From an uncultured Draconibacterium sp. (GTDB lineage Bacteria > Bacteroidota > Bacteroidia > Bacteroidales > Prolixibacteraceae), in the NCBI RefSeq assembly GCF_963677155.1, contig NZ_OY781884.1, forward strand, positions 2,972,501-3,036,500: 64,000 nucleotides of DNA. Reading direction: 5' to 3'. The notes beneath the pieces were generated by a model that was not told the DNA's origin, did not search any database, and worked only from the letters and a program-made list of their open reading frames with translations. This document shows positions 30,158-49,491 of the stretch, one piece after another. Numbering within the stretch: position 1 is the stretch's first letter; each line of letters opens with the position of its first letter. A program made the translations under genes and the position numbers.

Positions 30158-30200
30158 AATTGAACCGCAGAATGACGATTAACGATTTATGATTGCAGAT

Positions 30201-30626: not shown

Positions 30627-33600
30627 ATGATAGAAACACATATTAAAAAAGCAATTGTTCTTGGTTCAGGAGCACTTAAAATTGGAGAGGCCGGTGAGTT
30701 CGATTATTCCGGTTCGCAGGCGCTTAAGGCGTTGAAAGAGGAAGGTGTTGAAACGGTTCTTATCAATCCGAACATTGCAACCATTCAAACATCTGAAGAC
30801 ATTGCAGACAAAATTTATTTTTTGCCTGTTACACCTCATTTTGTTGAAGAGGTAATCAAAAAAGAAAAACCACAGGGAATACTTCTTGCATTCGGTGGAC
30901 AAACTGCGCTGAACTGCGGAGTTGCACTATACGAATCGGGAGTTCTCGAAAAATATAATGTTGAAGTAGTTGGTACGCCAGTTCAGTCGATTATTGATAC
31001 GGAAGACCGCGACATTTTTGCCAATATGCTGGCCGAAATCGGTGTAAAAACGCCAAAAAGTATTGCTGCTTCAAATATGGCCGAAGCAAAAGCGGCGGCT
31101 AAGGAAGTTGGCTTCCCAATAATCATTCGCGCGGCATACACGCTCGGTGGATTAGGTTCTGGGTTCTGCGAAAACGAAGAGGAGCTGGAAAAACTGGCCG
31201 GAAGCGCATTCTCTTATTCGCCTCAAATCCTGGTTGAAGAATCGATTAAAGGATGGAAAGAAGTGGAGTACGAAGTAGTTCGCGATAAATACGATAACTG
31301 TATTACTGTTTGTAACATGGAGAACTTCGACCCGCTTGGAATTCATACCGGCGAGAGTATTGTTGTGGCTCCATCGCAAACACTGTCGAATTCAGAATAT
31401 CATAAACTACGCGAAATCTCGATAAAAATTATTCGCCGGGTCGGTGTAATTGGCGAGTGTAACGTGCAGTTTGCGCTCGATCCGTACTCGGAAGATTACC
31501 GAGTAATTGAGGTAAATGCGCGTTTATCTCGTTCGTCGGCACTGGCGTCGAAAGCTACCGGTTATCCGCTGGCATTTGTAGCCGCAAAATTGGGATTGGG
31601 TTATGGTTTGCACCAACTTAAAAACTCGGTAACTAAAGTAACAACTGCTTGTTTCGAACCTGCACTCGACTACTGTGTGGTAAAGATTCCTCGCTGGGAT
31701 TTGAGCAAATTCGTAGGGGTTTCGAAAACCATTGGAAGTTCGATGAAATCGGTTGGCGAGATCATGGCCATTGGTCGAACTTTTGAAGAGGCTATTCAGA
31801 AAGGTATTCGAATGGTTGGGCTTGGTATGCACGGTTTTGTGGCCAACAACGAGGAGATTACAATTGAGGGAATTGAAGAAGAATTGTCAAATCCTACTGA
31901 CCGACGGATATTTGCGATTGCCGAGGCATTTAATAAAGGTTATTCTATCGATCAGATTCACGAGAAAACAAAAATTGATCGATGGTTCCTCCAAAAGCTG
32001 AATAATATTTACAAGATAAAGCTGGAACTGAAGAAATTTAACGAATTGGAGAAATTGCCAATTCCGCTGTTAAAAGTATCAAAACAGGCCGGTTATTCCG
32101 ATTTCCAAATAGCACGTTTGGTGCTGAGGAGTAAGAATGTTAATATTAATGAAGATATTCTGAAAGTTAGGGCTTTCCGTAAGGCTAACGGTATTGTCCC
32201 GGTAGTTAAACAAATTGATACACTGGCAGGAGAATATCCTGCGCAAACCAATTATCTGTATCTTACACATAACGGCACCGAGAATGATGTTGAGTATCTG
32301 GGAGATCACAAGTCAGTTGTTGTGCTCGGATCCGGAGCTTATAGAATTGGTAGTTCGGTTGAGTTTGACTGGTGTAGCGTAAATACCATTAAAACGATTA
32401 AAGAGCAGGGCTACCGTTCGGTAATGATCAACTATAACCCGGAGACGGTGAGTACGGATTACGATACCTGCGACAGGCTTTATTTTGATGAGCTGACTTT
32501 TGAGCGCGTAATGGATGTTTACGATCTGGAGAATCCGCACGGAGTTGTGGTTTCGATGGGAGGTCAGATCCCGAATAACCTGGCGATGAAACTAGATGGG
32601 CAAAATGTTCCGATTCTTGGTACATCGGCCAAAAAGATTGACAATGCTGAGGATCGTGAGAAATTTTCGTCACTGCTTGATGATCTGGGGGTTGACCAAC
32701 CGCGCTGGGCACGCCTTTCTACAATAGAAGAAATTCACAAGTTTGTTGATGAGGTGGGTTATCCTGTGTTAATCCGTCCATCGTACGTACTTTCGGGTGC
32801 TGCCATGAATGTGGTTTCCAATCCCGATCAGCTGGAGCACTTCCTTCAGATGGCAGCTAATGTGTCGAAAGAGCATCCGGTGGTTGTTACTGAGTTTATC
32901 GAGCAGGCCAAAGAAATTGAGCTTGACGCAGTGGCCAATAAAGGTGAGATGGTTGCTTATGCCATTTCGGAGCACGTGGAGTTTGCCGGAGTTCATTCGG
33001 GTGATGCTACCATCGTTTTCCCGCCGCAGAAACTATATGTTGAAACCATTCGCAGGGTGAAGAAAATTGCTCGTCAGATTGCAAAAGGACTGGAAATTAC
33101 CGGACCTTTTAATATGCAGTTTCTGGCAAAAGATAACGACATTAAAGTTATTGAATGTAACCTGCGTGCGTCGCGAAGTTTCCCGTTTGTTTCGAAGGTA
33201 ATGAAGCTTAACCTGATTGAAATTGCCACGAAAGTGATGTTGGGAATTGATGTGCCGAAACCAGACAAGTCGTTGTTCGAGCTGGATTATGTGGGGGTTA
33301 AAGCTCCTCAGTTCTCATTTGCGCGATTGCTGAAAGCCGATCCTGTTTTGGGTGTTGACATGTCGTCGACCGGCGAGGTTGGTTGTATTGGAGAGACCTA
33401 CTACGAAGCAATTATAAAAGCGATGATGTCTGTTGGGTATAGTTATCCTAAAAAGAATATTTTGATTTCATCTGGTCCATCGCGGGGCAAGCTGGAGTTG
33501 CTGAACAGCACCCGATTGTTGGTTGAAAAAGGTTATAATATTTTTGCCACTGAGGGAACACATAAATTTTTCCGGGATAACGGTATTGAAAATACCCTGG

Positions 33601-33860
33601 TGCACTGGCCCGACGAAGAAGATCAGTCGCCAAATACTATTGAGATGATCAAGAATAAAAAGATTGATCTGGTGGTTAATATTCCGAAAAACCATACTAA
33701 TCGTGAGTTGAAAAATGGTTATACGATTCGCCGTAGTGCAATTGACTATAACATCCCGCTAATTACCAATGCTCGTGTTGCAAGTGCATTCCTTTACGGA
33801 ATTTGCAAATACAGCCTCGAGGATATTAAAGTGGTGAGTTGGGACGAATACAAAGAGTAG
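30627..33860 (+). CDS. carB: carbamoyl-phosphate synthase large subunit
   Basis: The 1077-aa enzyme has the expected duplicated ATP-grasp layout: first carboxyphosphate domain to about residue 400, oligomerisation domain, second carbamoyl-phosphate domain (beginning near VVLGSGAYRIGSSVEFDW, residue 568), and a C-terminal MGS-like allosteric domain from about 945 (ILISSGPSRGKLEL). Typical motifs are GSGALKIGEAGEFDYSG and EVNARLSRSSALASKATGYP. It makes carbamoyl phosphate from bicarbonate, ammonia and two ATP. A terminator follows 27 nt after the stop. Confidence 0.96.
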   Translation: MIETHIKKAIVLGSGALKIGEAGEFDYSGSQALKALKEEGVETVLINPNIATIQTSEDIADKIYFLPVTPHFVEEVIKKEKPQGILLAFGGQTALNCGVALYESGVLEKYNVEVVGTPVQSIIDTEDRDIFANMLAEIGVKTPKSIAASNMAEAKAAAKEVGFPIIIRAAYTLGGLGSGFCENEEELEKLAGSAFSYSPQILVEESIKGWKEVEYEVVRDKYDNCITVCNMENFDPLGIHTGESIVVAPSQTLSNSEYHKLREISIKIIRRVGVIGECNVQFALDPYSEDYRVIEVNARLSRSSALASKATGYPLAFVAAKLGLGYGLHQLKNSVTKVTTACFEPALDYCVVKIPRWDLSKFVGVSKTIGSSMKSVGEIMAIGRTFEEAIQKGIRMVGLGMHGFVANNEEITIEGIEEELSNPTDRRIFAIAEAFNKGYSIDQIHEKTKIDRWFLQKLNNIYKIKLELKKFNELEKLPIPLLKVSKQAGYSDFQIARLVLRSKNVNINEDILKVRAFRKANGIVPVVKQIDTLAGEYPAQTNYLYLTHNGTENDVEYLGDHKSVVVLGSGAYRIGSSVEFDWCSVNTIKTIKEQGYRSVMINYNPETVSTDYDTCDRLYFDELTFERVMDVYDLENPHGVVVSMGGQIPNNLAMKLDGQNVPILGTSAKKIDNAEDREKFSSLLDDLGVDQPRWARLSTIEEIHKFVDEVGYPVLIRPSYVLSGAAMNVVSNPDQLEHFLQMAANVSKEHPVVVTEFIEQAKEIELDAVANKGEMVAYAISEHVEFAGVHSGDATIVFPPQKLYVETIRRVKKIARQIAKGLEITGPFNMQFLAKDNDIKVIECNLRASRSFPFVSKVMKLNLIEIATKVMLGIDVPKPDKSLFELDYVGVKAPQFSFARLLKADPVLGVDMSSTGEVGCIGETYYEAIIKAMMSVGYSYPKKNILISSGPSRGKLELLNSTRLLVEKGYNIFATEGTHKFFRDNGIENTLVHWPDEEDQSPNTIEMIKNKKIDLVVNIPKNHTNRELKNGYTIRRSAIDYNIPLITNARVASAFLYGICKYSLEDIKVVSWDEYKE

Positions 33861-34004: not shown

Positions 34005-34099
34005 CGTGGTTGACCACCTGAGACAACACAGGCAATTCCTCTGTTAGGCATAACTGCAATGTGAAAATTCCCTTTGTCTTTTTCTCTAAATTGTTCGTG

Positions 34100-34935: not shown

Positions 34936-35451
34936 ATGAAAAAAGTTTACAGACTGAATATCTTGGCTGCTTTTTGGGTAGTATTTGCTTTTCTCGGGGC
35001 ACAGGCTCAGGAAGTTAAGGTTGATGGTTTTTTTAATAGTTACGGAACTTCAGCATTTCAGGAAAGCAAACTTGTATCAAGTACTGGAGAGCCGGTTATT
35101 GGCATGTTGAATAATGGTGAATTACATTACCTACAGGGGTTTGTTTATAAAACACTGGGAACAGCCATTTCTACTAGCATTCCATTTACGGGTTTGGCTC
35201 CCATATCAATAAATATATATCCAAATCCTGCAAGCGATTTTATAAATATCGGGTACCCCTCTGAAGATTATGACAGGCTGCGGTACTCTTTATTTTCCGA
35301 AAAGGGAGAATTAATTAAGACTGGTTTGCTAACCGGACAGGAAACACAAGTAAGTGTATCTGAATTAGTACCCGCATTTTATCTTTTAATTGTTGAAAAC
35401 ACAAAATTAGAAACTACCATTAGCAGGAATAAATTAATGATTATGAAATAA
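34936..35451 (+). CDS. secreted protein with T9SS type A sorting domain
   Basis: The 171-aa protein has a signal peptide (cleavage near QAQ|EV). A short N-terminal segment follows with LVSSTGEPVIGMLNNGELHYLQGF, the pattern seen before sorting domains in many Bacteroidota proteins. A C-terminal type IX sorting domain starts near residue 95 (INIYPNPASDFINI) and ends in LMIMK. In known systems this domain directs export across the outer membrane and anchoring to surface lipid A. It is 5 bp from the next gene and likely co-transcribed with it; it may anchor or accompany the large fibrous proteins (inference). Confidence 0.8.
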   Translation: MKKVYRLNILAAFWVVFAFLGAQAQEVKVDGFFNSYGTSAFQESKLVSSTGEPVIGMLNNGELHYLQGFVYKTLGTAISTSIPFTGLAPISINIYPNPASDFINIGYPSEDYDRLRYSLFSEKGELIKTGLLTGQETQVSVSELVPAFYLLIVENTKLETTISRNKLMIMK

Positions 35452-35456
35452 ATTCT

Positions 35457-38400
35457 ATGAAAAAATTGTACCCTAAATTAATAATACTAAGTGCCGGATT
35501 GTTGCTTTTTTGCCAAACCTATGCACAACAATCTGAACCATTTAATTATCAGGCCGTCATAAGAAAATCTGACGGAACTATTGTAAAGAACGAACAGATT
35601 AATGTGAAATTCACTCTTAAAAGCAATGATGAAACAATTTACTACATGGAAGAGCAAAATCTTTCAACTGATGTATATGGAGTCATTAATGTTTCTGTTG
35701 GAAATGGGCAGGTAATTACCGGGGCTTTTGAGGGCATTAATTGGTCTGGGCAACTTGAATTTGATGTTGAAATTGACACAGATGGAGACGGAATCGCTGA
35801 CTTGCAAGGAAGTAATGAAATAACTTCGGTTCCTAAAGCTTGTTTTGCACAAAAGGCAGCGGTAGCTGACTCCCTATCATTCAGTTTAGCTTCTGTAGCA
35901 ATCAGTGGTGACTATAATGATTTGTCCAATAAACCCTCTTTGTCAATTAAGGGGACTACCTTACAAATTTCTGGTGGCAATAGCGTGATCCTTCCTCAGG
36001 TTAATGGGCAATCAGCCTACCAGATAGCAGTAAACAATGGATTTGCCGGGACCGAAGAGGAATGGTTGAATTCAATAAAAGGTGCTGACGGTAAAGATGG
36101 AATCAACGGTACCGATGGACAATCAGCTTACCAGGTAGCAGTAAACAATGGATTTACCGGGACCGAAGAGGAATGGTTGAATTCAATGAAAGGTGCTGAT
36201 GGTAAAGATGGGGTCAACGGTACCGATGGACAATCAGCCTACCAGGTAGCAGTAAACAATGGATTTACCGGGACCGAAGAGGAATGGTTGAATTCAATAA
36301 AAGGTGCTGACGGTAAAGATGGAATCAATGGTAAAGATGGACGATCAGCCTATGAGGTAGCAGTAAACAAAGGATTTACCGGAACAGAAGAGGAATGGTT
36401 GAATTCAATAAAAGGTGCTGACGGTAAAAATGGAATCAACGGTACCGATGGACAATCAGCCTATCAGGTAGCAGTAAACAAAGGATTTACCGGAACCGAA
36501 GAGGAATGGTTGAATTCAATAAAAGGTGCTGATGGTAAAGATGGAATCAACGGTACCGATGGACAATCAGCCTACCAGGTAGCAGTAAACAAAGGATTTA
36601 CCGGAACCGAAGAGGAATGGTTGAATTCAATGAAAGGTGCTGATGGTAAAGATGGGATCAACGGTACCGATGGACAATCAGCCTACCAGGTAGCAGTAAA
36701 CAATGGATTTACCGGAACCGAAGAGGAATGGTTGAATTCAATAAAAGGTGCTGACGGTAAAGATGGAATCAATGGTAAAGATGGACGATCAGCCTACCAG
36801 GTAGCAGTAAACAATGGATTTACCGGAACCGAAGAGGAATGGTTGAATTCAATAAAAGGTGCTGACGGTAAAGATGGAATCAATGGTAAAGATGGACGAT
36901 CAGCCTACCAGGTAGCAGTAAACAATGGATTTACCGGAACCGAAGAGGAATGGTTGAATTCAATAAAAGGTGCTGACGGTAAAAATGGAATCAACGGTAA
37001 AAATGGAATCAACGGTAAAAATGGAATCAATGGTGAAAATGGAATCAACGGTGAAAATGGAATCAACGGTACCGATGGACAATCAGCCTACCAGGTAGCA
37101 GTAAACAATGGATTTACCGGAACCGAAGAGGAATGGTTGAATTCAATGAAAGGTGCTGATGGTAAAGATGGGATCAACGGTACCGATGGACAATCAGCCT
37201 ACCAGGTAGCAGTAAACAATGGATTTACCGGAACCGAAGAGGAATGGTTGAATTCAATAAAAGGTGCTGACGGTAAAGATGGAATCAATGGTAAAGATGG
37301 ACGATCAGCCTACCAGGTAGCAGTAAACAATGGATTTACCGGAACCGAAGAGGAATGGTTGAATTCAATAAAAGGTGCTGATGGTAAAGATGGAATCAAC
37401 GGTACCGATGGACAGTCAGCCTACCAGGTAGCAGTAAACAATGGATTTACCGGAACAGAAGAGGAATGGTTGAATTCAATAAAAGGTGCTGATGGTAAGG
37501 ATGGAATCAACGGTGCCGATGGACAATCAGCCTACCAGGTAGCAGTAAATAAAGGATTTACCGGAACCGAAGAGGAATGGTTGAATTCAATGAAAGGTGC
37601 TGTTGGTAAAGATGGGATCAACGGTACCGATGGACAATCAGCCTACCAGGTAGCAGTAAACAATGGATTTATGGGGACAGAAGTAGAATGGTTAAATTCA
37701 ATAAAAGGAACTAGTTCTCCGGATGCAGATGCTGACACTAAGGGGGTAATACAATTAACCGGTGATTTAGCAGGTACAGCCACATCGCCTGTTATTGCAG
37801 AAAATGCAGTAACCACTTTGAAAATCGCTGATGCCAGCGTTACCGATATAAAGATCGCATCGGGAATCAGCGCATCCAAGGTTGGGCTCGGAAATGTGGA
37901 TAACACGGCAGATACAGATAAACCAATAAGCTCCGCGACACAAACAGCGCTCGATTTAAAATCGCCGCTGGCTTCTCCCGCTTTTACAGGAACACCAACA
38001 GCTCCAACAGCCACAGAAGGAACAAATGATACACAAATCGCAACAACTGCCTTTGTTGCCGCAGCAGTATCTTCTGTAGGTGGAGGAATTTCCACAGCAT
38101 CAAATGGTCTTACAGCATCATCGGGTGATGTAAAACTAGGTGGAACACTGACGTCATCAACTACCATTAATCAGGGAGCTAATGATGTGAATTTTACAGG
38201 AACCGGGACAGTTAGTGCAGATAGGTTAAAAATGGCTGGCGCTGTATATGCCACTGTTAGAACATATACCGGAGCTACAAATGTTGATTGGCAAGCCAAT
38301 GATTATGTGATCATTTTGACTAATAACAGTATTTCGGGAAGCTTCGCATTGCCAGCCCCCACTGCAAATGTGGGCAGAATATTATGCGTAAGAAACAATA

Positions 38401-38531
38401 CAGGAGGTTCCGTTGCACCACTACTGGCAGACGGGGTTTCATATCCTGAAAATGCCTTGAATTTAGCTGGAGGGGCTGCAATGATGTTTATTTCTGATGG
38501 AACAAACTGGCATACAATCGCCGGACGCTAA
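35457..38531 (+). CDS. exported collagen-like, phage-tail-fibre-like repeat protein
   Basis: The 1024-aa protein has a signal peptide (near CQTYAQ|QS) and, at about 25-135, an N-terminal domain common in Bacteroidota surface proteins (FNYQAVIRKSDGTIV ... SVPKACFAQKA). A short SGDYNDLSNKP linker follows, then fifteen repeats of a 37-residue unit at about 184-752 combining SAYQVAVNNGFTGTEEEWLNS with five GXY triplets. The C-terminal part has phage-tail hallmarks: GLGNVDNTADTDKP near 811, ASPAFTGTPTAPT near 840, TQIATTAFV, and a tip-like domain ending SDGTNWHTIAGR. Likely a trimeric extracellular fibre or adhesin; the ligand is unknown. Confidence 0.85.
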   Translation: MKKLYPKLIILSAGLLLFCQTYAQQSEPFNYQAVIRKSDGTIVKNEQINVKFTLKSNDETIYYMEEQNLSTDVYGVINVSVGNGQVITGAFEGINWSGQLEFDVEIDTDGDGIADLQGSNEITSVPKACFAQKAAVADSLSFSLASVAISGDYNDLSNKPSLSIKGTTLQISGGNSVILPQVNGQSAYQIAVNNGFAGTEEEWLNSIKGADGKDGINGTDGQSAYQVAVNNGFTGTEEEWLNSMKGADGKDGVNGTDGQSAYQVAVNNGFTGTEEEWLNSIKGADGKDGINGKDGRSAYEVAVNKGFTGTEEEWLNSIKGADGKNGINGTDGQSAYQVAVNKGFTGTEEEWLNSIKGADGKDGINGTDGQSAYQVAVNKGFTGTEEEWLNSMKGADGKDGINGTDGQSAYQVAVNNGFTGTEEEWLNSIKGADGKDGINGKDGRSAYQVAVNNGFTGTEEEWLNSIKGADGKDGINGKDGRSAYQVAVNNGFTGTEEEWLNSIKGADGKNGINGKNGINGKNGINGENGINGENGINGTDGQSAYQVAVNNGFTGTEEEWLNSMKGADGKDGINGTDGQSAYQVAVNNGFTGTEEEWLNSIKGADGKDGINGKDGRSAYQVAVNNGFTGTEEEWLNSIKGADGKDGINGTDGQSAYQVAVNNGFTGTEEEWLNSIKGADGKDGINGADGQSAYQVAVNKGFTGTEEEWLNSMKGAVGKDGINGTDGQSAYQVAVNNGFMGTEVEWLNSIKGTSSPDADADTKGVIQLTGDLAGTATSPVIAENAVTTLKIADASVTDIKIASGISASKVGLGNVDNTADTDKPISSATQTALDLKSPLASPAFTGTPTAPTATEGTNDTQIATTAFVAAAVSSVGGGISTASNGLTASSGDVKLGGTLTSSTTINQGANDVNFTGTGTVSADRLKMAGAVYATVRTYTGATNVDWQANDYVIILTNNSISGSFALPAPTANVGRILCVRNNTGGSVAPLLADGVSYPENALNLAGGAAMMFISDGTNWHTIAGR
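36006..37713 (+). repeat. fifteen tandem 111-bp coding repeats
   Basis: Units of 111 bp (37 codons) start at 36006 and follow without gaps. Unit 9 (36894-37076) is 72 bp longer because its GKNGIN/GENGIN hexapeptide is present five times instead of once. The units differ at only a few alternating positions (Q/R, N/K, I/M, T/K, D/N), so they were homogenised recently. Confidence 0.95.
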
Positions 38532-38679
38532 TATTTTATAAAGGGTTTTCACAATATCAAAAAGAGATAATAAAGAGAGTATGAAAGAGGTAATACATAA
38601 TAGAAACAAAGTTTCTTATGTAAATGAAAGAATATTGTTTCCAATTGCTCAGGTAGGTAAATACTCCTATTCTGTTCGA

Positions 38680-39396
38680 ATGAGAAAGGGAAAGTTCAAT
38701 TGCCTGTTACTTTTGTTTTTACTTGTATTACCTGGAGTTGGTTTTGCTCAGGTTCAAACTAACGGGAAACCAGCTTATACCATTACGAATGAGAATCCAT
38801 TTTTTGATGCTTCCACCAGTTTTAACGACGGTGTTAACATTGGAAAAGGCCTTGTTTTTCCACGAACTGATTTAACGGTTTTCACTTTTAGAACCGGTTC
38901 AGTGGATGGAATCAATTTTCCAACAGCTTTTGACGGGATGATAGTTTATAATTCAGGAACAGGCAATACCGTGTCAGGACAGGGACAGGTTACCGAGGTT
39001 GCTCCTGGATTCTATTATTTTAGCAATCCAGCAGGAACAACTTCTGTTACCAATGGAAAATGGGTTCGAATAGCGGATGGCACTGATGTTATAACGGGAA
39101 AATCGACATCCGAAATTGTTGAAAATGGAACAGCTTTGGCTACAGGTGGTCAGATTTATGATTTTACACTTCAAAGCATTTCAGATTCAATTCAAAACTT
39201 ACAACCTATGCTTTTTGAAAAGGAACTGATTACCGGTGAAAACAACATTGATGTAGGTTTTTCATTAAATGAAAACGTACAAGTGCTATACAACGGACAG
39301 GCTATTTCCAAAAGCCAGTGGACAGGTATTGGCTCTACGGTTATCCATTTAAATCTGGCAACAAAATCATACGATAATTTAACAGTAAAACGATAA
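38680..39396 (+). CDS. exported protein with tail-tip-like C-terminus
   Basis: The product (about 238 aa) has a signal peptide (KFNCLLLLFLLVLPGVGFAQ). The frame opens 33 codons earlier at 38581, but that extension is charged and would place the signal peptide internally. The middle region (VFPRTDLTVFTF, FDGMIVYNSGTG, NGKWVRIADG) resembles Bacteroidota surface proteins. A GTALATGGQIYDF module is shared with the 1822-aa protein and resembles phage TGxxVYD modules. The C-terminus (VQVLYNGQAISKSQW) resembles phage NG-type tip domains. Precise function unknown. Confidence 0.7.
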   Translation: MRKGKFNCLLLLFLLVLPGVGFAQVQTNGKPAYTITNENPFFDASTSFNDGVNIGKGLVFPRTDLTVFTFRTGSVDGINFPTAFDGMIVYNSGTGNTVSGQGQVTEVAPGFYYFSNPAGTTSVTNGKWVRIADGTDVITGKSTSEIVENGTALATGGQIYDFTLQSISDSIQNLQPMLFEKELITGENNIDVGFSLNENVQVLYNGQAISKSQWTGIGSTVIHLNLATKSYDNLTVKR

Positions 39397-39438
39397 AAGT
39401 AAAGTTAATTAATTTATAAATTTTAAAAAATCAGAGAA

Positions 39439-40221
39439 GTGAAAAAATTGATTATTACAATGGGCATTATTCTTGCCACCATGGCAGGATTCTCACAGGT
39501 TGCACCAACTTCTGTTTACCGGGTTGCCGATGCGGAAACAGTATTCGGTATAAATATTTCAGTGGGTAAGCAGGTTTACAATATTGCAACTGAAGAGCTC
39601 TGGGTTGCAACAGAGGGTGTGGTAAGTACTGCTACCCTTACTTCAGCAGCCTCTTCGTTTAAAATTGTTAACGGAACAGGAACTACAAATTTAGCCGAAG
39701 CCAATGCTACAGAAACAACAGTTGATATAACGTCAAGTACCGGAACAAAAGCTACGCTTCAGAGCGCCACTACCAGCCGGGCAGGTTTAATGTCGAAAGC
39801 AAAATTTGATGAGGTTGAACTTAACAACGCCAAAGAAACAAATGTTTCCACTCAGTTGGAAACAGGAACTGTTACAGGAACTACCGTTGCGATTACTAGT
39901 GATGGCGATGACGACGATGTTATACTGGTGGCTGCAAATACAGATGACGCAGGTTTAATGACTGCCGACCAGTTTGACAAACTGGATGCCGTTGAAGCCG
40001 GAGCCCAGGTGAATTATACATTGATAACTGAAAAGTTTGAAGAAACCAGTGAAACTGCGACAACACACGCGCTGGCACACACAGCTCAAACCGGCGGATG
40101 TACTGTTTCACTAAACGGAACAGTACTTGATCCTTCAGATTATACACTTACAGCAACAACTATAGCAATTAATCTACCTGTAGCACAATACGATATCGTG
40201 CTTATTACTTACAACTACTAG
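39439..40221 (+). CDS. exported tail-fibre-like protein
   Basis: The 260-aa protein starts at GTG and has a signal peptide (MKKLIITMGIILATMAGFSQ). The N-terminal part (GINISVGKQVYNIATEELW) is shared with the next gene. AGLMSKAKFDEVELNN and AGLMTADQFDKLDAVEAGAQVN are classic phage tail-fibre modules. The C-terminal VSLNGTVLDPSDYTLTATT matches the tip-like NG domain of the preceding protein. It is 42 bp from the upstream gene and 201 bp from the downstream one. Confidence 0.75.
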   Translation: MKKLIITMGIILATMAGFSQVAPTSVYRVADAETVFGINISVGKQVYNIATEELWVATEGVVSTATLTSAASSFKIVNGTGTTNLAEANATETTVDITSSTGTKATLQSATTSRAGLMSKAKFDEVELNNAKETNVSTQLETGTVTGTTVAITSDGDDDDVILVAANTDDAGLMTADQFDKLDAVEAGAQVNYTLITEKFEETSETATTHALAHTAQTGGCTVSLNGTVLDPSDYTLTATTIAINLPVAQYDIVLITYNY

Positions 40222-40422
40222 AATAAAAGTACGCATCATTATGCTTTCTTCTAAAAAAACAACCATTAACTTTTAAAAAGAAAGCAAAGAGTTTTTCATT
40301 TAACATATGCCTGAACAAGCATAAAAGTCCGGGCTGAGGGATGAAATAATTTTTAGTATAAATGACAGGTATTTTTTAATATGGTTATTGTAGAATGATT
40401 TAACGATTTAAAAGTAGTATTA

Positions 40423-43400
40423 GTGAAAAAGTTAATAATTTCCATACTCATATCCTTTGTCTTTCTTTTTACTTATGGGCAGAATACTCCTGTAAAAGTA
40501 GTACGAATTAAAAATGCAACAACAGCATTTGGCTCGAATATTAGTGCCGGAAGTCAGGTGTATAACGTGGCTACCAAAAAATTATGGATTGCGAACACCG
40601 GAGTAGCCGAAACAGAAACCCTGACCTCGGCTTCTTCTTCGTTTAGCCTGATTAATGTAGGAGGCACTATTACAGAAGTAACTACGGCAAATACCGAACA
40701 GTTAACGGTAATAAATGGAACAACCACCCCGGAACTTTCGGTAGTTACAGATGCGGTAACAAACCATGGGACAGCTTTGACCACAGGAGGTCAGGTTTAT
40801 AATTTTGTAACTGGTCAGAATTACCTGACAAATGAAACCGACCCGGCAGCCGGTGCTGTAAACGGAGCAATCTCCTCCGACGGGGCAGGCAATTTCAGCC
40901 AGGCATCAAGTACTGACCTGAGCGATGTTGCAGGATTAACCACGGGAACTCTTCCCTATAAAACAGCTACAGAACTGAATGACAGTCCTGTTTATTCAAA
41001 TGGGAACAATGTCGGTGTGGGAACGACTAATCCTTCCGAAAAACTCGAAGTAGTTGGAAGAATCCTGGCCGACTCTGTTACCGTAGGCGACAACACTACC
41101 GGAATTTACAAAGATGCTTCCAACAATCTGGTATTTACCGATGCGACAACCGGTAACAAAACATTGGCTGAATTGACCAGCTCAGCAGTTTCCAATTGGG
41201 GCCTGAGCGGAAATACAGGTACCACAGCAGGCACCAACTTTATTGGTACCACCGATGATGTAGATGTGGTATTTAAACGCAACGGCATACAAGCCGGATT
41301 CCTTAATACCGTTAATACCTCCTGGGGTGTAGGTGCACTTAATCCCGCAACAACCGGGATTAGTAATGTGGCTATTGGGGATTCTGCATTGGCTTACAAC
41401 ACAACGGGAGGCATAAATACGGCCGTAGGTTTCAGGGCACTTACAACGAATGAGACAGGTAGTGGAAACTCTGCCTTTGGATTCTGGGCGCTTTATAATA
41501 ATATAAACGGAATGAACAACACTGCTTCAGGAAGGTCAGCTCTTAATGATAACACAACCGGATCAGCAAACACAGCTATAGGAACAGCTGCACTTAGGGC
41601 TAATACAACCGGAAACAACAATATCGCTATCGGATTCAGTGCTGGTAAAGGCGATCCTTCAAATGCTGAAACCCAGAGCTCTGTTATTGACGAAAATGCA
41701 GTATTTGTAGGCTATCAAGCAAGCCGCGACGGGGTGTCCAACACCACGGCATTGACCAACATAACTGCTATTGGTTACAAAGCCAAAGTAAGCCAAAGTA
41801 ATAGTATGGTTTTAGGTGGCATCGGTGAAAATGCCGTAAACGTGGGTATCGGAACAACAGCTCCTACCGCAAAACTCGAAGTAGTTGGAAGAATCCTGGC
41901 CGACTCTGTTACCGTAGGCGACAACACTACCGGAATTTACAAAGATGCTTCCAACAACCTGGTATTTACCGATGCGACAACAGGAACCAAAACATTGGCA
42001 GAATTGACCAGCTCAGCAGCTTCTAACTGGAGCCTGAGCGGAAATACAGGTACCACAGCAGGCACCAACTTTATTGGTACAACCGATGATGTGGATGTGG
42101 TATTTAAACGCAACGGCATACAAGCAGGGGGGCTAAATCCAGATAATACCTCCTGGGGGGTAGGTGCACTTAATCCCGCAACAACTGGGGTTAAGAATGT
42201 GGCTATTGGGGATTCTGTATTGGTCTATAACACAACGGGACTTGTAAATACTGCCGTAGGTTCCAAAGCACTTTTTAAGAATGAGACAGGTACTGGAAAC
42301 TCTGCCGTTGGATTCGCGGCGCTTTATAGCAACACAACCGGAGCACAAAACACAGTTTTAGGAAGGGGAACTCTTTATGATAACACAACCGGATCAGAAA
42401 ACATAGCTGTAGGAGCATTTGCACTTAGGGCTAATACAACCGGAAATTATAACACAGCTATTGGAATCGGAGCAGGTCAAGGATATTACTTAAATGAAAA
42501 CGAACACTCTGTTATTGATGAAAATGCACTATTTATAGGCTATGAAGCAAGCCGCGACGGGGTGTCCAACACCACGGCATTGACTAACATAACTGCTATT
42601 GGTTACAAAGCCAAAGTAAGCCAAAGCAACAGCATGGTTTTAGGTGGTACCGGTGAAAATGCCGTAAACGTGGGTATCGGAACAACAGCTCCTACCGCAA
42701 AACTCGAAGTAGTTGGAAGAATACTGGCCGACTCTGTTACCGTAGGCGACAACACTACCGGAATTTACAAAGATGCTTCCAACAACCTGGTATTTACCGA
42801 TGCGACAACCGGTAACAAAACATTGGCTGAATTGACCAGCTCAGCAGCTTCTAACTGGGGCCTGAGCGGAAATACAGGTACCACAGCAGGCATCAACTTT
42901 ATTGGTACAACCGATGATGTGGATGTGGTATTTAAACGCAACGGCATACAAGCAGGGTTACTTGATACCGTTAATACTTCCTGGGGTGTAGCTGCATTAA
43001 ATGCGGCAACAACCGGGATTAGTAATGTGGCTGTTGGGGATTCTGCATTGGCCTATAACACAACGGGACTTGTAAATACTGCCGTAGGTTCCAAAGCACT
43101 TTTTAAGAATGAGACAGGGAGTTCAAACTCTGCCTTTGGATTCACAGCGCTTTATAATAATACAACTGGAGCCGTAAATACTGCTTCAGGAAGGTCAGCT
43201 CTTTATAATAACACAACCGGAGACGAAAACACAGCTGTAGGAACAGGCGCACTTAGGGCTAATACAACCGGAAATAACAACACAGCTATTGGAGCCTTTG
43301 CAGGTAAAGGCGATCTTTCAAATGCTGAAACCCAGAGTTCTGTTATTGACGAAAATGCAGTATTCATAGGCTATGAAGCAAGCCGCGACGGGGTGTCCAA

Positions 43401-45891
43401 CACCACGGCATTGACCAACATAACTGCTATTGGTTACAAAGCCAAAGTAAGCCAAAGCAACAGCATGGTTTTAGGTGGTACCGGTGAAAATGCCGTAAAC
43501 GTGGGTATCGGAACAACAGCTCCTTCCGCAAAACTCGAAGTAGTTGGAAGAATACTGGCCGACTCTGTTACCGTAGGCGACAACACTACCGGAATTTACA
43601 AAGATGCTTCCAACAATCTGGTATTTACCGATGCGACAACCGGTAACAAAACATTGGCAGAATTGACCAGCTCAGCAGCTTCTAACTGGAGCCTGAGCGG
43701 AAATACAGGTACCACAGCAGGCACCAACTTTATTGGTACCACCGATGATGTGGATGTGGTATTTAAACGCAACGGCATACAAGCAGGGTTACTTGATACC
43801 GTTAATACCTCCTGGGGTGTAGCTGCATTAAATGCGGCAACAACCGGGGGTGATATTGTGGCTATTGGGGATTCGGCATTGGCCTACAACACAACGGGAT
43901 TCGCAAATACTGCCATAGGTTCGAAAGCACTTACAATGAATGAGACAGGTAGTGGAAACTCTGCCTTTGGATTCACAGCGCTTTATAATAATACAACTGG
44001 AAAAAACTCTGCCTTTGGAGCAGAGGCACTTTATAATAATACAACTGGAGCAAGAAACACAGCTTCAGGATGGAGGACTCTTTATAACAATACAACCGGA
44101 GAAAAAAACGCAGCTATAGGAACAGTTGCACTTTGGGCTAATACAACCGGAAATAACAATATAGCTATCGGGTTCGGTGCACTTTATTATAGTACAACCG
44201 GAAATAACAATATAGCTATCGGGGTCGGTGCAGGTAAAGGATATTATTTAAATGAAAACGAACACTCTGTTATTGATGAAAATGCACTATTTGTCGGCTA
44301 TGAAGCAGGCCGCGATGGCAGTGTCCCCAATACTACGGCGCTTACCAACATAACTGCAATTGGCTACGAAGCTAAAGTGAGCCAAAGTAACAGCATGGTT
44401 TTAGGTGGTACCGGTGAAAATGCCGTAAACGTGGGTATGGGAACAACAGCTCCTACCGCAAAACTCGAAGTAGTTGGAAGAATCCTGGCCGACTCTGTTA
44501 CCGTAGGCGACAACACTACCGGAATTTACAAAGATGCTTCCAATAACCTGGTATTTACCGATGCGACAACCGGTAACAAAACATTGGCAGAATTGACCAG
44601 CTCAGCAGTTTCCAATTGGGGCCTGAGCGGAAATACAGGTACCACAGCAGGCACCAATTTTATTGGTACCACCGATGATGTGGATGTGGTATTTAAACGC
44701 AACGGCATACAAGCAGGGGTACTAAATGCAGATAATACCTCCTGGGGGGCAGGTGCACTTAATCCCGCAACAACTGGGGCTAAGAATGTGGCTATTGGGG
44801 ATTCTGCATTGGCTTACAACACAACAGCAGTTATAAATACTGCCGTAGGTTCCAAAGCACTTTTTACGAATGAGACAGGTAGTGGAAACTCTGCCTTTGG
44901 ATTCACGGCGCTTTATGTTAATACAACTGGAATGGCAAACACAGCTTTAGGAAGGTCAACTCTTTTTAGTAACACAACCGGATCAGAAAACACAGCTGTA
45001 GGGACATTTGCACTTTGGGCTAATACAACCGGAAATTATAACACAGCTATTGGAGTCCGTGCAGGTACAGGCGGAGGCACAGCTGAAAATCACCCCTCTG
45101 TTATTGACGAAAAAGCAGTATTTGTAGGCTATCAAGCAAGCCGAGATGGTAGTGTCCCCAATACTACGGCACTTACCAACATAACTGCAATTGGCTACGA
45201 AGCCAAAGTGAGCCAAAGCAACAGCATGGTTTTAGGTGGCATCGGTGAAAATGCCGTAAACGTGGGAATTGGAACAACAGCACCTGAAACATCACTACAT
45301 ATCGAAAGAAATTTTAACGGAACAGGCCCGGCTTCATCAATTCCTTCGCTTAAAGTATCGAATACCAACACAACCGGCAATAGTTTTGCTGCTGTAGATG
45401 TAACAGCCGCAAACGGGGCAAGTATCGGATTGCTGGCCGACGGTCTTGGAACGGCCTTTAACGATGGTGTTCCGATGGGGATGATTCGCACCATGCAGGA
45501 TGTACCTCTTGTTTTAGCCACTGGTACCGCGACAGAGCAGGTACGGATAATGCCTAATGGGAATGTTGGTGTTGGTACGAAAACACCAACATCAAAACTG
45601 GAGGTTAATGGAGCAGTAAGCTATCCTATCATAAAAACAAATACCGATATTGATTTAGACGAAACAATGCATACTGTAATCTTTGAACCCGGAATCGAGA
45701 ATGTGCTTCTACCACAGGCGTCAACCGCAACGGGAAGGGTGTATATATTGGTAAATCGAACAGATAACGAAGTTATCATTTCGAGTTACTATGGTCTCAA
45801 TAATTATTTTGATACTGATATAACAAAAATTCCGGCAACTTCAAGTATCACACTTCAATCTGATGGTACAAATTGGTACCAGATACAATAA
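40423..45891 (+). CDS. giant exported protein with YadA-head-like and GIGTTAP repeats
   Basis: The 1822-aa protein starts at GTG and has a signal peptide (near FTYGQ|NT). After an N-terminal region shared with the previous gene come five large units. Each holds a GIGTTAPTAKLEVVGRI segment, a GNTGTTAGTNFIGTTDD segment and a run of 21-22-residue motifs of the type NTAVGSKALFKNETGSGNS. The last resemble the left-handed beta-roll head repeats of YadA-like trimeric adhesins. The C-terminus (LLPQASTATGRVYILVN ... SDGTNWYQIQ) matches that of the collagen-like protein. No S74 chaperone or T9SS domain is visible. Last gene of the cluster. Confidence 0.85.
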   Translation: MKKLIISILISFVFLFTYGQNTPVKVVRIKNATTAFGSNISAGSQVYNVATKKLWIANTGVAETETLTSASSSFSLINVGGTITEVTTANTEQLTVINGTTTPELSVVTDAVTNHGTALTTGGQVYNFVTGQNYLTNETDPAAGAVNGAISSDGAGNFSQASSTDLSDVAGLTTGTLPYKTATELNDSPVYSNGNNVGVGTTNPSEKLEVVGRILADSVTVGDNTTGIYKDASNNLVFTDATTGNKTLAELTSSAVSNWGLSGNTGTTAGTNFIGTTDDVDVVFKRNGIQAGFLNTVNTSWGVGALNPATTGISNVAIGDSALAYNTTGGINTAVGFRALTTNETGSGNSAFGFWALYNNINGMNNTASGRSALNDNTTGSANTAIGTAALRANTTGNNNIAIGFSAGKGDPSNAETQSSVIDENAVFVGYQASRDGVSNTTALTNITAIGYKAKVSQSNSMVLGGIGENAVNVGIGTTAPTAKLEVVGRILADSVTVGDNTTGIYKDASNNLVFTDATTGTKTLAELTSSAASNWSLSGNTGTTAGTNFIGTTDDVDVVFKRNGIQAGGLNPDNTSWGVGALNPATTGVKNVAIGDSVLVYNTTGLVNTAVGSKALFKNETGTGNSAVGFAALYSNTTGAQNTVLGRGTLYDNTTGSENIAVGAFALRANTTGNYNTAIGIGAGQGYYLNENEHSVIDENALFIGYEASRDGVSNTTALTNITAIGYKAKVSQSNSMVLGGTGENAVNVGIGTTAPTAKLEVVGRILADSVTVGDNTTGIYKDASNNLVFTDATTGNKTLAELTSSAASNWGLSGNTGTTAGINFIGTTDDVDVVFKRNGIQAGLLDTVNTSWGVAALNAATTGISNVAVGDSALAYNTTGLVNTAVGSKALFKNETGSSNSAFGFTALYNNTTGAVNTASGRSALYNNTTGDENTAVGTGALRANTTGNNNTAIGAFAGKGDLSNAETQSSVIDENAVFIGYEASRDGVSNTTALTNITAIGYKAKVSQSNSMVLGGTGENAVNVGIGTTAPSAKLEVVGRILADSVTVGDNTTGIYKDASNNLVFTDATTGNKTLAELTSSAASNWSLSGNTGTTAGTNFIGTTDDVDVVFKRNGIQAGLLDTVNTSWGVAALNAATTGGDIVAIGDSALAYNTTGFANTAIGSKALTMNETGSGNSAFGFTALYNNTTGKNSAFGAEALYNNTTGARNTASGWRTLYNNTTGEKNAAIGTVALWANTTGNNNIAIGFGALYYSTTGNNNIAIGVGAGKGYYLNENEHSVIDENALFVGYEAGRDGSVPNTTALTNITAIGYEAKVSQSNSMVLGGTGENAVNVGMGTTAPTAKLEVVGRILADSVTVGDNTTGIYKDASNNLVFTDATTGNKTLAELTSSAVSNWGLSGNTGTTAGTNFIGTTDDVDVVFKRNGIQAGVLNADNTSWGAGALNPATTGAKNVAIGDSALAYNTTAVINTAVGSKALFTNETGSGNSAFGFTALYVNTTGMANTALGRSTLFSNTTGSENTAVGTFALWANTTGNYNTAIGVRAGTGGGTAENHPSVIDEKAVFVGYQASRDGSVPNTTALTNITAIGYEAKVSQSNSMVLGGIGENAVNVGIGTTAPETSLHIERNFNGTGPASSIPSLKVSNTNTTGNSFAAVDVTAANGASIGLLADGLGTAFNDGVPMGMIRTMQDVPLVLATGTATEQVRIMPNGNVGVGTKTPTSKLEVNGAVSYPIIKTNTDIDLDETMHTVIFEPGIENVLLPQASTATGRVYILVNRTDNEVIISSYYGLNNYFDTDITKIPATSSITLQSDGTNWYQIQ
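41041..45290 (+). repeat. five tandem coding repeats of 0.83-0.93 kb
   Basis: The phrase AAACTCGAAGTAGTTGGAAG recurs at about 41039, 41870, 42698, 43529 and 44459, giving periods of 831, 828, 831 and 930 bp. The first about 260 bp of each unit is nearly identical, while the beta-roll part varies. Unit 4 is longer by extra beta-roll motifs. Confidence 0.92.
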
Positions 45892-45970: not shown

Positions 45971-46185
45971 AAAATAAATTGATGACAGCATACTTATCAG
46001 AATAAGCTGGCTGCTAGAAGAAGGTAAGTGAGGATGATAGGAGATAACTTATTAATTTGAAATTATAGTTTTCCTTACTTTCACTTCGTGGCCTTTCCGG
46101 CGGGGAGCAGTACAGACTAGATATAGTTGCAAATGTTAGGAATACCAGAAAAATAGTTGGGATATCAAACAGCAAAACAGAAACT

Positions 46186-46410
46186 TCATTGTTTTGCGAT
46201 GTGCTTCTTTAGTACCACCAACAAATCTGCTTTTTTCACTGGTTTAACAATATAATCAACGCAGCCGGCTACTAGCGATTGTTCTTTTCATTGTTCAGAA
46301 CATTAGCAGACTGTGCTATAATCGGCACCGAGTTGTTAATTGTTTTTATATTAAAAGTAGCACCTAACCCATTCATTACCGCCATTAATTCTTTGGAAGC
46401 TGTGCGTGTT
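46186..46410 (-). pseudogene. frameshifted response-regulator receiver remnant
   Basis: On the minus strand TASKELMAVMNGLG ... VPIIAQSANVLNNEKNN reads into two stops. After a one-base shift it continues LVAGCVDYIVKPVKKADLLVV and ends with TGA at 46186-46188. The PIIAxSAN and AGxxDYIxKP segments are beta4 and the Lys-Pro switch of a CheY-like receiver. The N-terminal half and any kinase are missing. Confidence 0.6.
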
Positions 46411-46648
46411 TGCAGAACCGGAACTTGAAAAACTGGAACTCCTGTTTGAAAAATGCAGTGGAGAAAACTTTTTCAGAGAACTGGATAACTACAATCAGTT
46501 TTTCCATGGCATCTCCTGTTTAAAAGAAGAAGAACAGCTTATCATGGATGAAATCCTACAGCTACTGTTACAAAAACTAGAATTAGCCTGCTCTTGTATA
46601 AATGATAAAAATAAAGAAACGTGTTACTCCCTTGCGAACCAGGTATGA
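46406..46648 (+). CDS. short helical ORF, probable gene fragment
   Basis: An 80-codon frame encodes an acidic, leucine-rich, helical product (EPELEKLELLFEKCSG, EEEQLIMDEILQLLLQKLEL). Its composition is protein-like. It begins where the opposite-strand receiver remnant ends, as expected at a recombination junction, and the first codon may not be a real start. No family recognised. Confidence 0.35.
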   Translation: MFAEPELEKLELLFEKCSGENFFRELDNYNQFFHGISCLKEEEQLIMDEILQLLLQKLELACSCINDKNKETCYSLANQV

Positions 46649-47169
46649 AAAGTCTCCTGTATCAGTTCTGATATAGGAAGTGCGACAGGTACTGGTACAA
46701 GAAGCAATACAGGAACAATTGTGGCTAATGTAGTACCCGGTAGCTTAATATAAATAAGTTACGGGGAATGATTAGCCGGTGGAGTTGAATCTATCGTCGT
46801 TACAAATTACTTGTTTCCCTTAACCGATCGCAAAGAATTAACAGGATTACTTGCCTTCCCGGGAATCCCAACCTGGTGTGTCAAATGATTTAAAATATCG
46901 TCTTCTGGCAGCTGATTTAACATGTTTATGGTTTTACTCTTTGTCTAAGGCCCGGATCAGCTCAATATCACTCATTATATACGTTTTTTTGAAGGTCAGA
47001 TTCATTTTATTTAGTGATATTGAGCTTGTTTGCTGTTTTCTTTTTGTGTTCTGTTACCTAACTTTATTTCCATAAAAAGCCCCTTTCGAGGTAGGATAGC
47101 AAGTTTATGTTTTGGGCAGACCAAAACCCATGTTTAGCATCCCGTTGGTCTAAAAAATGGTAATAAAAT
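46649..47169. other. gap upstream of the mobilization genes
   Basis: No complete gene was found. A short plus-strand frame reads GSATGTGTRSNTGTIV before a stop near 46750 and may be a fragment. The oriT-like inverted repeat (46959-47026) lies here, 144 bp before the MobC-like start. Confidence 0.45.
46959..47026. repeat. 14-bp inverted repeat, candidate oriT region
   Basis: AGCTCAATATCACT (46959-46972) recurs perfectly inverted at 47013-47026, separated by 40 bp. Its place just upstream of mobC and the relaxase gene is where the transfer origin of small mobilizable elements usually lies. No nic consensus was recognised. Confidence 0.45.
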
Positions 47170-47514
47170 ATGGTACAATTTAACAAAGGCGGACGTCCAC
47201 GAAAGTTGGATGGTGAGAAGATGAAATATAAGGTAACGGTAAAAATGTCGACCGTAGAATTTTACTCCTTAATTGGCAAATCGCAAGAAGCCGGAATTAC
47301 CCAAAGTGAGTTTATCAGACAGTCAATAATGAGTATGACCGTCGTCCAACGCTTAACACCTGAATTAAATGCAGAAATAAGAAAACTTTCAGGAATGGGT
47401 AATAAACTGAATCAGATTGCACGTAAAGCCAATGCGCTTGGTTACGATCATATTCGGAGCGAATACCTGTTTTTAGCGCGTAAGATTGACCGAATCATAA
47501 ACAAGATGCTATGA
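47170..47514 (+). CDS. MobC-like mobilization accessory protein
   Basis: The 114-aa basic protein has an N-terminal GGRPRK segment. An MSTVEFYSLIGKSQEAGITQSEFIR stretch reads like a ribbon-helix-helix DNA-binding region, and the C-terminus has the MobC-type GNKLNQIARKANALG. Such proteins help the relaxase open oriT. The stop codon overlaps the relaxase start by 4 bp (ATGA), so the pair is translationally coupled. Confidence 0.8.
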   Translation: MVQFNKGGRPRKLDGEKMKYKVTVKMSTVEFYSLIGKSQEAGITQSEFIRQSIMSMTVVQRLTPELNAEIRKLSGMGNKLNQIARKANALGYDHIRSEYLFLARKIDRIINKML

Positions 47515-48299
47515 TTGCCAAGATTACAACAGGTGGAGATTTTTCCGGGGAAGTAGAATATATACTTGATCCAAAGAAGGCGGCTGAATTGTTTATAGGA
47601 GTGGGTGTACGTTTGAAAAATACTCACTCGATTATAAAAAGTTTTACGGCTCAAACAGAACTTAATTTGCGGGTAGGCAAACCGGTAGGTCATATTTCCC
47701 TTGATTTCTCTGTTCAGGATAAAGCAAAATTAAGTAATACCTTTATGCTGAAAGTTGCAGATGATTACATGAATAGAATGGGAATTGTAAATACCCGGTT
47801 TATAATAGCCCGGCACTACGATAAGGAGCATCCCCATATACATATTGTTTTTAACAGGGTGAACAACCTGGGGAAAACCATTTCTAACAAAAACGATCGT
47901 TACCGTAGTGAAAAGATCTGCAAAGAACTTACACGAAAAAATGACCTGTATTTTGCAAAAGGAAAAGAAAATGTAAAAGTTCATAGACTCAAGGAGCCGG
48001 ACAAAACAAAATATGAAATTTATTACAGCCTGAAAGAACTTATTCCCAAATGTAAAGACATGGATGAACTGGAAGCTAAGCTGAAAAAAGAGGGGATAAT
48101 TTTCCACTATAAATACAGGGGGAATACAAATGTTGTCCAGGGGATTTCGTTTATTAAAAACAATTTAAGATTTAATGGTTCGAAAGTTGACCGAGAATTT
48201 AGTTACTCCAAAATAAAGTACCGGTTGGATCAGAATAAGGTGCAGGAATATTTTAAGGCATACAGAATTCATCCGATGATTATAACTTTCAACAGCTAA
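47511..48299 (+). CDS. relaxase/mobilization nuclease, short form
   Basis: The 262-aa relaxase of the MobA/VirD2-like (PF03432-type) family has a candidate catalytic Tyr in EYIL at residue 17. The metal-binding histidine motif lies in RHYDKEHPHIHIVFNRV near 100-116 (His-x-His). Family members nick oriT and lead the strand during transfer. At 262 aa it lacks the long C-terminal part of many relaxases, and degenerate sequence follows, so truncation is possible. It could still act on the inverted-repeat region upstream if intact. Confidence 0.82.
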   Translation: MIAKITTGGDFSGEVEYILDPKKAAELFIGVGVRLKNTHSIIKSFTAQTELNLRVGKPVGHISLDFSVQDKAKLSNTFMLKVADDYMNRMGIVNTRFIIARHYDKEHPHIHIVFNRVNNLGKTISNKNDRYRSEKICKELTRKNDLYFAKGKENVKVHRLKEPDKTKYEIYYSLKELIPKCKDMDELEAKLKKEGIIFHYKYRGNTNVVQGISFIKNNLRFNGSKVDREFSYSKIKYRLDQNKVQEYFKAYRIHPMIITFNS

Positions 48300-48692: not shown

Positions 48693-49106
48693 TTAAGGGG
48701 TGGTTATTTTGTAGTTTTTATTTGTGCTCGCCGAAAGCTTGCCGGATTCGGTCAGGTGATGGTAGTCAAACAACTTGTTTAATGAATGAACGTTTTCATC
48801 TTCACATAGAAAATGTGATTTAATGGTTTCAGTAGTAATAAATTCTCTTTTGAGTTGAAGTTTCTGGTAGCACTCGACTAATTTAGACTGTACGAATTCC
48901 AGGTAGGTATTGAAAGATCTACTACCAGGAGCGTTACTTTTAAGCTTACCTTTAGCTGCATTCCAATGCTTGGTTTTGACAGTTTTCTTAAGCGAAATCT
49001 CCACTCTCTTTTTATTAACTGTAATTCTTGCATAGACTAAACTGTCAGTAGTTTTTCCCTTCCGTCTGCTAATGAATTGAATTCCAAATGATTGATTTGT
49101 TCTCAT
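48693..49106 (-). pseudogene. truncated tyrosine-type site-specific integrase
   Basis: The 137-codon frame has the arm-binding and SAM-like N-terminal parts of Bacteroidota integrases: SLVYARITVNKKRVEISLKKTV, KHWNAAKGKLK, LEFVQSKLVECYQKL and LNKLFDYHH. It stops after KNYKITTP. The whole catalytic domain with the R-H-R-Y residues is absent, so it cannot recombine DNA. It points away from the tRNA-Gln gene 310 bp to the right, the usual place of an integrase beside its attachment site. Confidence 0.8.
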
Positions 49107-49415: not shown

Positions 49416-49491
49416 TGGTTGACCCACCAGGGCTCGAACCTGGACTCTTCTGGACCAAAACCAGACGTGTTGCCAATTACACCATGGGTCA
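49416..49491 (-). tRNA. tRNA-Gln (anticodon TTG), CCA encoded
   Basis: On the minus strand a full cloverleaf can be drawn. The acceptor stem is TGACCCA/TGGGTCA, the D-arm is near TGTAATTGGCAACA, the anticodon loop TTTTGGT carries TTG, and the T-arm contains GGTTCGAGCC. The discriminator A and CCA are encoded. The 3' end faces the decayed mobile element, so this gene is the likely integration site. Confidence 0.95.

Follow-up and report, generated by a model that had tools for sequence, protein, structure and literature searches.

A five-gene cluster headed by a sorting-domain protein and a fibre

The DNA analysed here is a 64,000-nucleotide stretch from an uncultured Draconibacterium sp. (contig NZ_OY781884.1), which we call the window. 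Our subject is a cluster of five genes within it, P1 to P5, the first two of which encode a small protein with a sorting domain of the type IX secretion system (T9SS) and a large chimeric fibre. All five open reading frames (ORFs) lie on the + strand, at 34936-35451, 35457-38531, 38581-39396, 39439-40221, and 40423-45891, respectively, and are separated by 5 bp (P1-P2), 49 bp (P2-P3), 42 bp (P3-P4), and 201 bp (P4-P5); the second gap becomes 148 bp when the start of P3 is placed at 38680. In each product, a basic start is followed by a hydrophobic stretch with an AQ-, SQ-, or GQ-type end, an arrangement that resembles a Sec signal peptide as judged from anatomy and hydropathy, with cleavage sites placed by eye. 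A previous sequence-only reading of this DNA proposed five co-directional genes for exported proteins, the first with a T9SS sorting domain, and our analysis bears out both points. P1 to P5 are presumably co-transcribed.

P1 is a short protein of 171 residues, which we propose to be an adaptor or anchor. Its residues 94-161 match the type A sorting domain PF18962 at 35.4 bits (cut-off 27), giving P1 the C-terminal sorting domain of a T9SS type A substrate, while the score against TIGR04183, 22.8 bits, lies just under the cut-off of 23. The sorting domain was likewise recovered by a leave-one-out profile (1.9e-14). Over its full length, P1 matches the partner found on the fibre side in the relative genome G045 (4.7e-13), and its relatives include short proteins of ~150-190 residues, often with an adjoining fibre gene. 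A profile search of the small-protein family against solved structures returned mainly T9SS sorting domains.

P2 has 1024 residues. Its signal peptide is followed by an N-domain of the type found in mosaic adhesive trimer (MAT) fibres, then by 37-residue repeats that include collagen-like stretches, by tail-fibre modules and DUF5907, and by a C-terminal tip. The segment encoding the N-domain and signal peptide occupies 35457-35906 on the + strand. Against NF053851, the family of Bdellovibrio MAT fibre N-domains, P2 matches over residues 15-86, with E values of 2.7e-11 for the whole protein and 1.7e-13 for the first 150 residues, a score below the curated cut-off of the family. The 37-residue unit occurs 15 times and is encoded by 111-bp tandem repeats at 36004-37708 (+ strand), interrupted by a short collagen-like stretch; the collagen and DUF5907 assignments come from Pfam. 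P2 also matches PHROG tail-fibre families. Because these scores are inflated by the repeats, the support for a tail-fibre relationship rests on the non-repeat C-terminal 270 residues, which matched 17 of 50,697 phage records, each at no more than 27% query coverage, some of them annotated as minor tail or structural proteins.

Pairing of the two genes across Bacteroidota

Fibre genes with the N-domain of P2 were gathered in three sets, which overlap in part. The first derives from 43 N-domain matches in 31 relative genomes, giving 41 fibre ORFs in 40 regions. The second consists of the best 80 of 570 named loci, two of them labelled Chlorobiota and the others bearing Bacteroidota names, and the third of 43 out of 48 matches in 148 genomes drawn evenly from the phylum. 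NF053851 was matched by all 16 members of one group of fibre N-domains at E up to 0.01 and by all 85 of another at E up to 0.001, and P2 is recovered at 3.4e-24 by a profile of its relatives from which it was left out. Judging from these profile matches, the N-domain of P2 is clearly homologous to the MAT N-domain. A profile search of the fibre N-domain against solved structures gave nothing convincing, the best E value being 0.088.

Beyond the N-domain, the related fibres differ. In the second set, 71 fibres were complete, and their tip and shaft families include Lcl_C (26), Fib_succ_major (16), collagen (14), the S74 chaperone (6), and the YadA head PF05658 (3). Like MAT fibres, these proteins are mosaics whose ends change. 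The Lcl_C and Fib_succ_major tips are presumably C-type-lectin-like folds.

A small sorting-domain protein recurs beside these fibres. A partner was defined in all three sets as a short same-strand sorting-domain protein within 200 bp, with a size limit of 220 residues in the first set and 260 in the third. In the first set, 27 of the 41 fibre ORFs have a partner, 21 upstream and 6 downstream, at a median gap of 15 bp; where at least 600 bp were available on both sides, the count is 18 of 26. Similarly, 72 of the 94 fibre ORFs in the best 80 of the 570 loci are paired, covering 69 of the 80 loci, with 71 partners upstream, 1 downstream, and a median gap of 9 bp (61 of 76 where there was room on both sides). 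Some of the partnerless fibres of that set stand in tandem behind one partner (L158, L178, L179, and L185). Three loci show the arrangement in an enlarged form: in L158, L179, and L085, the partner N-domain and sorting domain end larger proteins of 598, 666, and 1322 residues, followed by one to several fibre genes.

In the third set, 26 of the 43 fibre ORFs have a type A partner of up to 260 residues. The other 17 include two second fibres in tandem (L204 and L209), a fibre lying 736 bp from a 295-residue protein with the partner N-domain (L208), three with a partner-N-domain protein one gene further away (L234, L236, and L237, the first of these proteins having no sorting domain known to Pfam), and five whose neighbour carries a sorting domain of type B. 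In the sequence-only reading, the T9SS gene stood apart from the other four; comparison shows instead that fibre genes of this type have such a gene as their conserved partner, which probably accounts for surface display. The gene order that this reading proposed to look for in other Bacteroidota recurs as far as the pair of fibre and T9SS-tagged partner is concerned, and relatives of P3 and of the P4/P5 type are scarce.

The pairing is also specific when approached from the other side. Profile A7 represents the partner N-domain without the sorting domain and includes P1. It gave 9 matches in 6 of the 148 phylum genomes, and all nine, the window's own included, lie at most 312 bp from a fibre N-domain, for which the chance expectation is ~0.001 per match. 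Within the order, 57 of 149 genomes were matched; at 29 of the best 30 loci a same-strand ORF with a fibre N-domain lies within 200 bp, and the one remaining locus stops 126 bases behind the partner gene. As a control, we compared the sorting-domain ORFs of the first 38 loci: a fibre stands alongside 18 of the 22 that have the partner N-domain vs none of the 17 without it (Fisher p 1.8e-7).

T9SS, sorting tags and the proposed mechanism

The fibres themselves carry no tag. A type A sorting domain was found in 0 of 41, 0 of 94, and 0 of 43 fibre ORFs in the three sets, respectively (6, 4, and 2 ORFs being cut at the locus end), and among the 71 full fibres of the second set neither sorting-domain type is within the 25 commonest of 33 families. 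The tag on the partner, by comparison, is exchangeable. The fibre neighbour bears a type B domain (PF13585) in L215, L223, L224, L227, and L229, and the partner N-domain was recognised in four of these neighbours (L224, 1.1e-9; L223, 7.3e-8; L229, 0.008; L215, 0.0012 with a second profile), though not in that of L227. Since type B neighbours bear the partner N-domain, this domain is kept while the tag changes. In L223, the type B neighbour is followed by a PorP/SprF gene.

Fibre-bearing genomes also have the T9SS machinery. PorU is present in 31 of 33 fibre-bearing genomes (E up to 1e-10; in G185 only 2.3e-22) vs 75 of 115 fibreless ones, a difference with p 8e-4 in which kinship is ignored. 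The two fibre-bearing genomes in which PorU was not found, G139 and G197, could be held against T9SS dependence; both have SprA, which brings the count for PorU or SprA to 33 of 33. In G062, a fibreless member of the same family, SprA was not found. The genome from which the window comes has PorU, SprA, and 30 sorting-domain matches.

We consider it fairly probable that P1 and P2 exemplify a two-protein surface-fibre system widespread in Bacteroidota, with the small protein acting as T9SS adaptor or anchor for the fibre. The large protein would be a chimeric, probably trimeric fibre whose MAT-type N-domain lies at the cell and whose tip varies, with collagen-like and tail-fibre modules forming the shaft between them; it bears a Sec signal and is devoid of a T9SS sorting domain. 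Its partner would combine a signal peptide and a small N-domain with a T9SS sorting domain, the latter being of type A or else, in some genomes, type B. The partner N-domain would bind the fibre N-domain, and the sorting domain would bring the partner through the T9SS, with the fibre attached or captured outside, and fix it on the surface, where the fibre may serve in adhesion. In the window, the pair is followed by three more exported proteins, one of them a clear fibre.

The small protein could instead provide docking alone, leaving by the T9SS as a surface dock while the fibre either takes another route across the outer membrane or is released and then caught outside. The pairing data cannot separate export from anchoring, and the two tags suit an anchor: type A substrates are described as leaving with PorV, to be either released or attached to lipopolysaccharide, and type B substrates as using other, anchoring carriers (PMC10994853). 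Moreover, an outer-membrane-barrel-like gene lies between partner and fibre at L236:3466-4613 and L237:3447-4699, a weak assignment below the family cut-off. Against this, no other outer-membrane exporter was seen beside the pair in most loci, where no systematic search was made, and we regard docking alone as rather unlikely.

Another view is that the two genes are operon mates without contact, neighbours through co-expression, with the small protein acting by itself. The gaps are short, as is typical of any operon, and the N-domain of P1 is very divergent. However, the partner N-domain as sole query led to fibres in nine of nine and 29 of 30 cases, it persists where the tag differs, and the pairing is retained where the order varies, as in the 6 of 27 downstream partners of the first set. 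Likewise, a locus with a broken fibre gene (L238:1538-3836) retains 69 codons of the partner N-domain on its upstream side, the pair having decayed together. Co-divergence points the same way. Across 88 pairs, distances between fibre N-domains track partner N-domain distances (partial rho 0.456, controlling for the sorting domain) more closely than sorting-domain distances (0.259, controlling for the partner N-domain), and neither value was reached in any of 500 permutations. As both parts of the partner have one gene history, the stronger N-domain signal points, weakly, to contact through the N-domain. Mere co-expression is thus an improbable account of the pair.

Several observations weigh against our adaptor or anchor reading. 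The difference in co-divergence is modest (0.19 by bootstrap, 95% range 0.03 to 0.375) and uncorrected for the species tree. The MAT superfamily is defined by a conserved N-domain of ~130 residues directly after the signal peptide, at the curated score; P2 has the signal peptide by anatomy and hydropathy, while its first 150 residues score 50.7 bits vs the cut-off of 60 and match only positions 3-78 of the 162 in the profile, and we therefore do not file P2 as a MAT protein. Its own genome contains only one fibre N-domain of this kind. The N-domain of P1, in turn, can be aligned with its relatives (alignment A2) and goes unrecognised by leave-one-out profiles: profiles of partner N-domains did not match P1 at E up to 10 in one test and in another gave E values of 0.4 (8.3 bits, vs 7.9 for the highest-scoring of 1000 shuffled sequences) and 1.7 (6.3 bits, vs 8.7 for the highest-scoring shuffled sequence), which is close to what shuffled sequences reach. 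An attempt to place P1 in the small-partner family by this domain alone thus failed. As the domain is too divergent for the profiles, the membership of P1 rests on size, gene order, sorting domain, position, and the G045 match. The partner-N-domain profiles were trained on neighbours of fibres, so that lone copies of a different kind could escape them. Finally, 6 of the 43 fibre ORFs in the third set have no intact partner (L207, L225 twice, L235, L238, and L239).

Beyond the adaptor or anchor role, we tentatively raise a broader possibility: that Bacteroidota export large, untagged, phage-derived trimeric fibres in trans through a dedicated small tagged protein that binds their MAT-type base and carries them through the T9SS or docks them there, that one tag serves an exchangeable repertoire spreading on mobile islands and even phages, and that the small protein is the counterpart of the surface element of Bdellovibrio MAT fibres.

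Other cluster genes, the tRNA-Gln island and known systems

Behind the pair, P5 is a large exported fibre of 1822 residues made of five repeat units of ~277 residues, with YadA-head-like repeats seen by eye. It matches PHROG virion-structural and tail-spike families, and its last 530 residues matched 80 phage records, all at less than 60% identity. Its matches to the Pfam family IL1 and to the NCBIfam cobalt-precorrin methyltransferase and SecB families were set aside as chance in a repetitive protein. P4 is an exported protein whose N-domain is shared with P5 (49% over 96 residues); its sole phage match, to a Vibrio phage tail protein, is weak (3e-4). Relatives of the P4/P5 N-domain occur in only one other of 61 genomes. 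In G032, a cluster of exported proteins (L196:7090-19835), three of them with an N-domain of this type, adjoins a PorP/SprF gene. P3 is an exported protein of unknown fold with a probable start at 38680, the internal ATG being the only one that fits an export signal. It has no phage match and no PHROG, Pfam, or NCBIfam family, and its relatives are limited to one marginal match (9.2e-4). Attempts to place P3 and P4 were unsuccessful, their relatives being few or marginal.

The sequence-only reading had assembled four of the genes from tail-fibre modules. Given the phage matches, this is firm for P2 and P5, weak for P4, and unshown for P3. A surface fibre system with adopted tail-fibre modules is the best interpretation of P1, P2, and P5, P3 and P4 being linked to phage fibres weakly or not at all, and a surface-fibre function of the cluster is likely.

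The five genes are carried by a mobilisable island, by now degraded, that lies at a tRNA-Gln gene and is absent from relatives. In the relatives G002 and G010, carB, tRNA-Gln, and a TMEM260-like gene follow one another, representing the empty site. The window matches this site up to 34015 and again from 49416, and the two matches overlap in the 9 bp TGGTTGACC, present as a left copy at 34007-34015 (putative attL) and as a right copy at 49416-49424 (putative attR), the end of the tRNA-Gln gene (49416-49491, - strand). G005 has the same junction with an insertion of its own of ~1.1 kb nearby. Among the ten relatives examined, the 12 kb behind carB contained no tRNA-Gln and no TMEM260-like gene in five (L243 and L246-L249), and in L244 and L245 the two stand in another arrangement. 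Between the junctions lie 15.4 kb comprising P1 to P5, a MobC/NikA-like mobilisation protein (47170-47514, + strand; PF21983 and PF05713), a MobA/VirD2-type relaxase (47511-48299, + strand; PF03432, 6.6e-34), and an integrase fragment, an ORF of 137 residues with only the arm DNA-binding domain (48693-49106, - strand; PF17293, 2.1e-13). The island therefore has the relaxase and tRNA-site insertion of an integrative mobilisable element and lacks a complete integrase. Composition does not mark the island as foreign, its G+C content being 0.406 vs 0.402 for the remainder of the window.

Short open frames at 46150-46650 resemble, by eye, the fragments of one decayed regulatory gene. Outside the island, a protein of the 23S rRNA-intervening-sequence type (PF05635) is encoded at 30189-30563 between two carbamoyl-phosphate synthase genes, the large subunit, named by eye, lying at 30627-33860.

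The fibre N-domain was not found in annotated phage records and is encoded on three contigs of a viral collection. On two of these, partner and fibre lie side by side (L198:2437-4374 and L199:2467-3654). Five other ORFs were tested on each contig, and phage-family matches, to families of unknown function, were obtained for four on L199 and none on L198. Phages may therefore carry this host surface system. That the cluster is itself the leftover tail-fibre genes of an integrated phage is very improbable and was rejected: the tail-fibre modules of P2 and P5, the tRNA insertion, the integrase fragment, and the related pair beside phage-family genes on L199 would fit such a remnant, whereas P1 to P5 bear signal peptides and give fibre-type PHROG matches only, P1 has a T9SS tag, the pair is spread over the chromosomes of many Bacteroidota, and the island holds a relaxase and MobC instead of any phage structural gene, an absence already noted in the earlier reading and upheld between the fibre genes and the tRNA by PHROGs for P1 to P5 and by Pfam for the three mobilisation ORFs.

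Among known systems, trimeric autotransporter adhesins of the YadA type resemble P5 in its head-like repeats and the three of 71 related fibres with PF05658. However, no YadA-type membrane anchor family was found in P5 at E up to 1, and we rejected its assignment as a trimeric autotransporter. The Mfa1 fimbriae of Porphyromonas gingivalis are also surface fibres with one component, the tip protein Mfa5, that has a T9SS C-terminal signal domain (PMC7835359). They differ, as described there, in being type V pili with unrelated subunits, and Mfa5 is a tip rather than the small partner of a one-chain fibre. P1 and its relatives share the type A domain, and some partners the type B domain, of T9SS substrates. 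The known substrates described in PMC10994853 are tagged themselves, whereas here the fibre is untagged and the tag sits on a separate small protein. The fibre could thus be a T9SS cargo that a second protein, bearing the tag, recruits.

The closest likeness is to the MAT fibres of Bdellovibrio bacteriovorus (PMC10769870), with which P2 and its relatives appear to share the signal peptide, a homologous N-domain, the mosaic of phage modules, and changing tips. In contrast, P2 scores under the family cut-off, neither P2 nor P5 showed an S74 tip by Pfam, and in Bacteroidota a T9SS-tagged partner gene adjoins the fibre; the main text of the MAT paper does not mention type IX secretion. What appears to be new is that a MAT-type fibre goes with a separate T9SS-tagged protein, a pairing maintained across Bacteroidota. 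No description of it was found among the titles and abstract openings that searches of open-licence literature brought up, and one may still be published. The MAT N-domain is reported to have no structural counterpart among PDB entries and to attach to a surface element yet to be identified (PMC10769870). For a domain homologous to it, the Bacteroidota pair offers a concrete candidate partner, and it suggests a likely role for a common class of short T9SS proteins and for many tail-fibre-like bacterial proteins.

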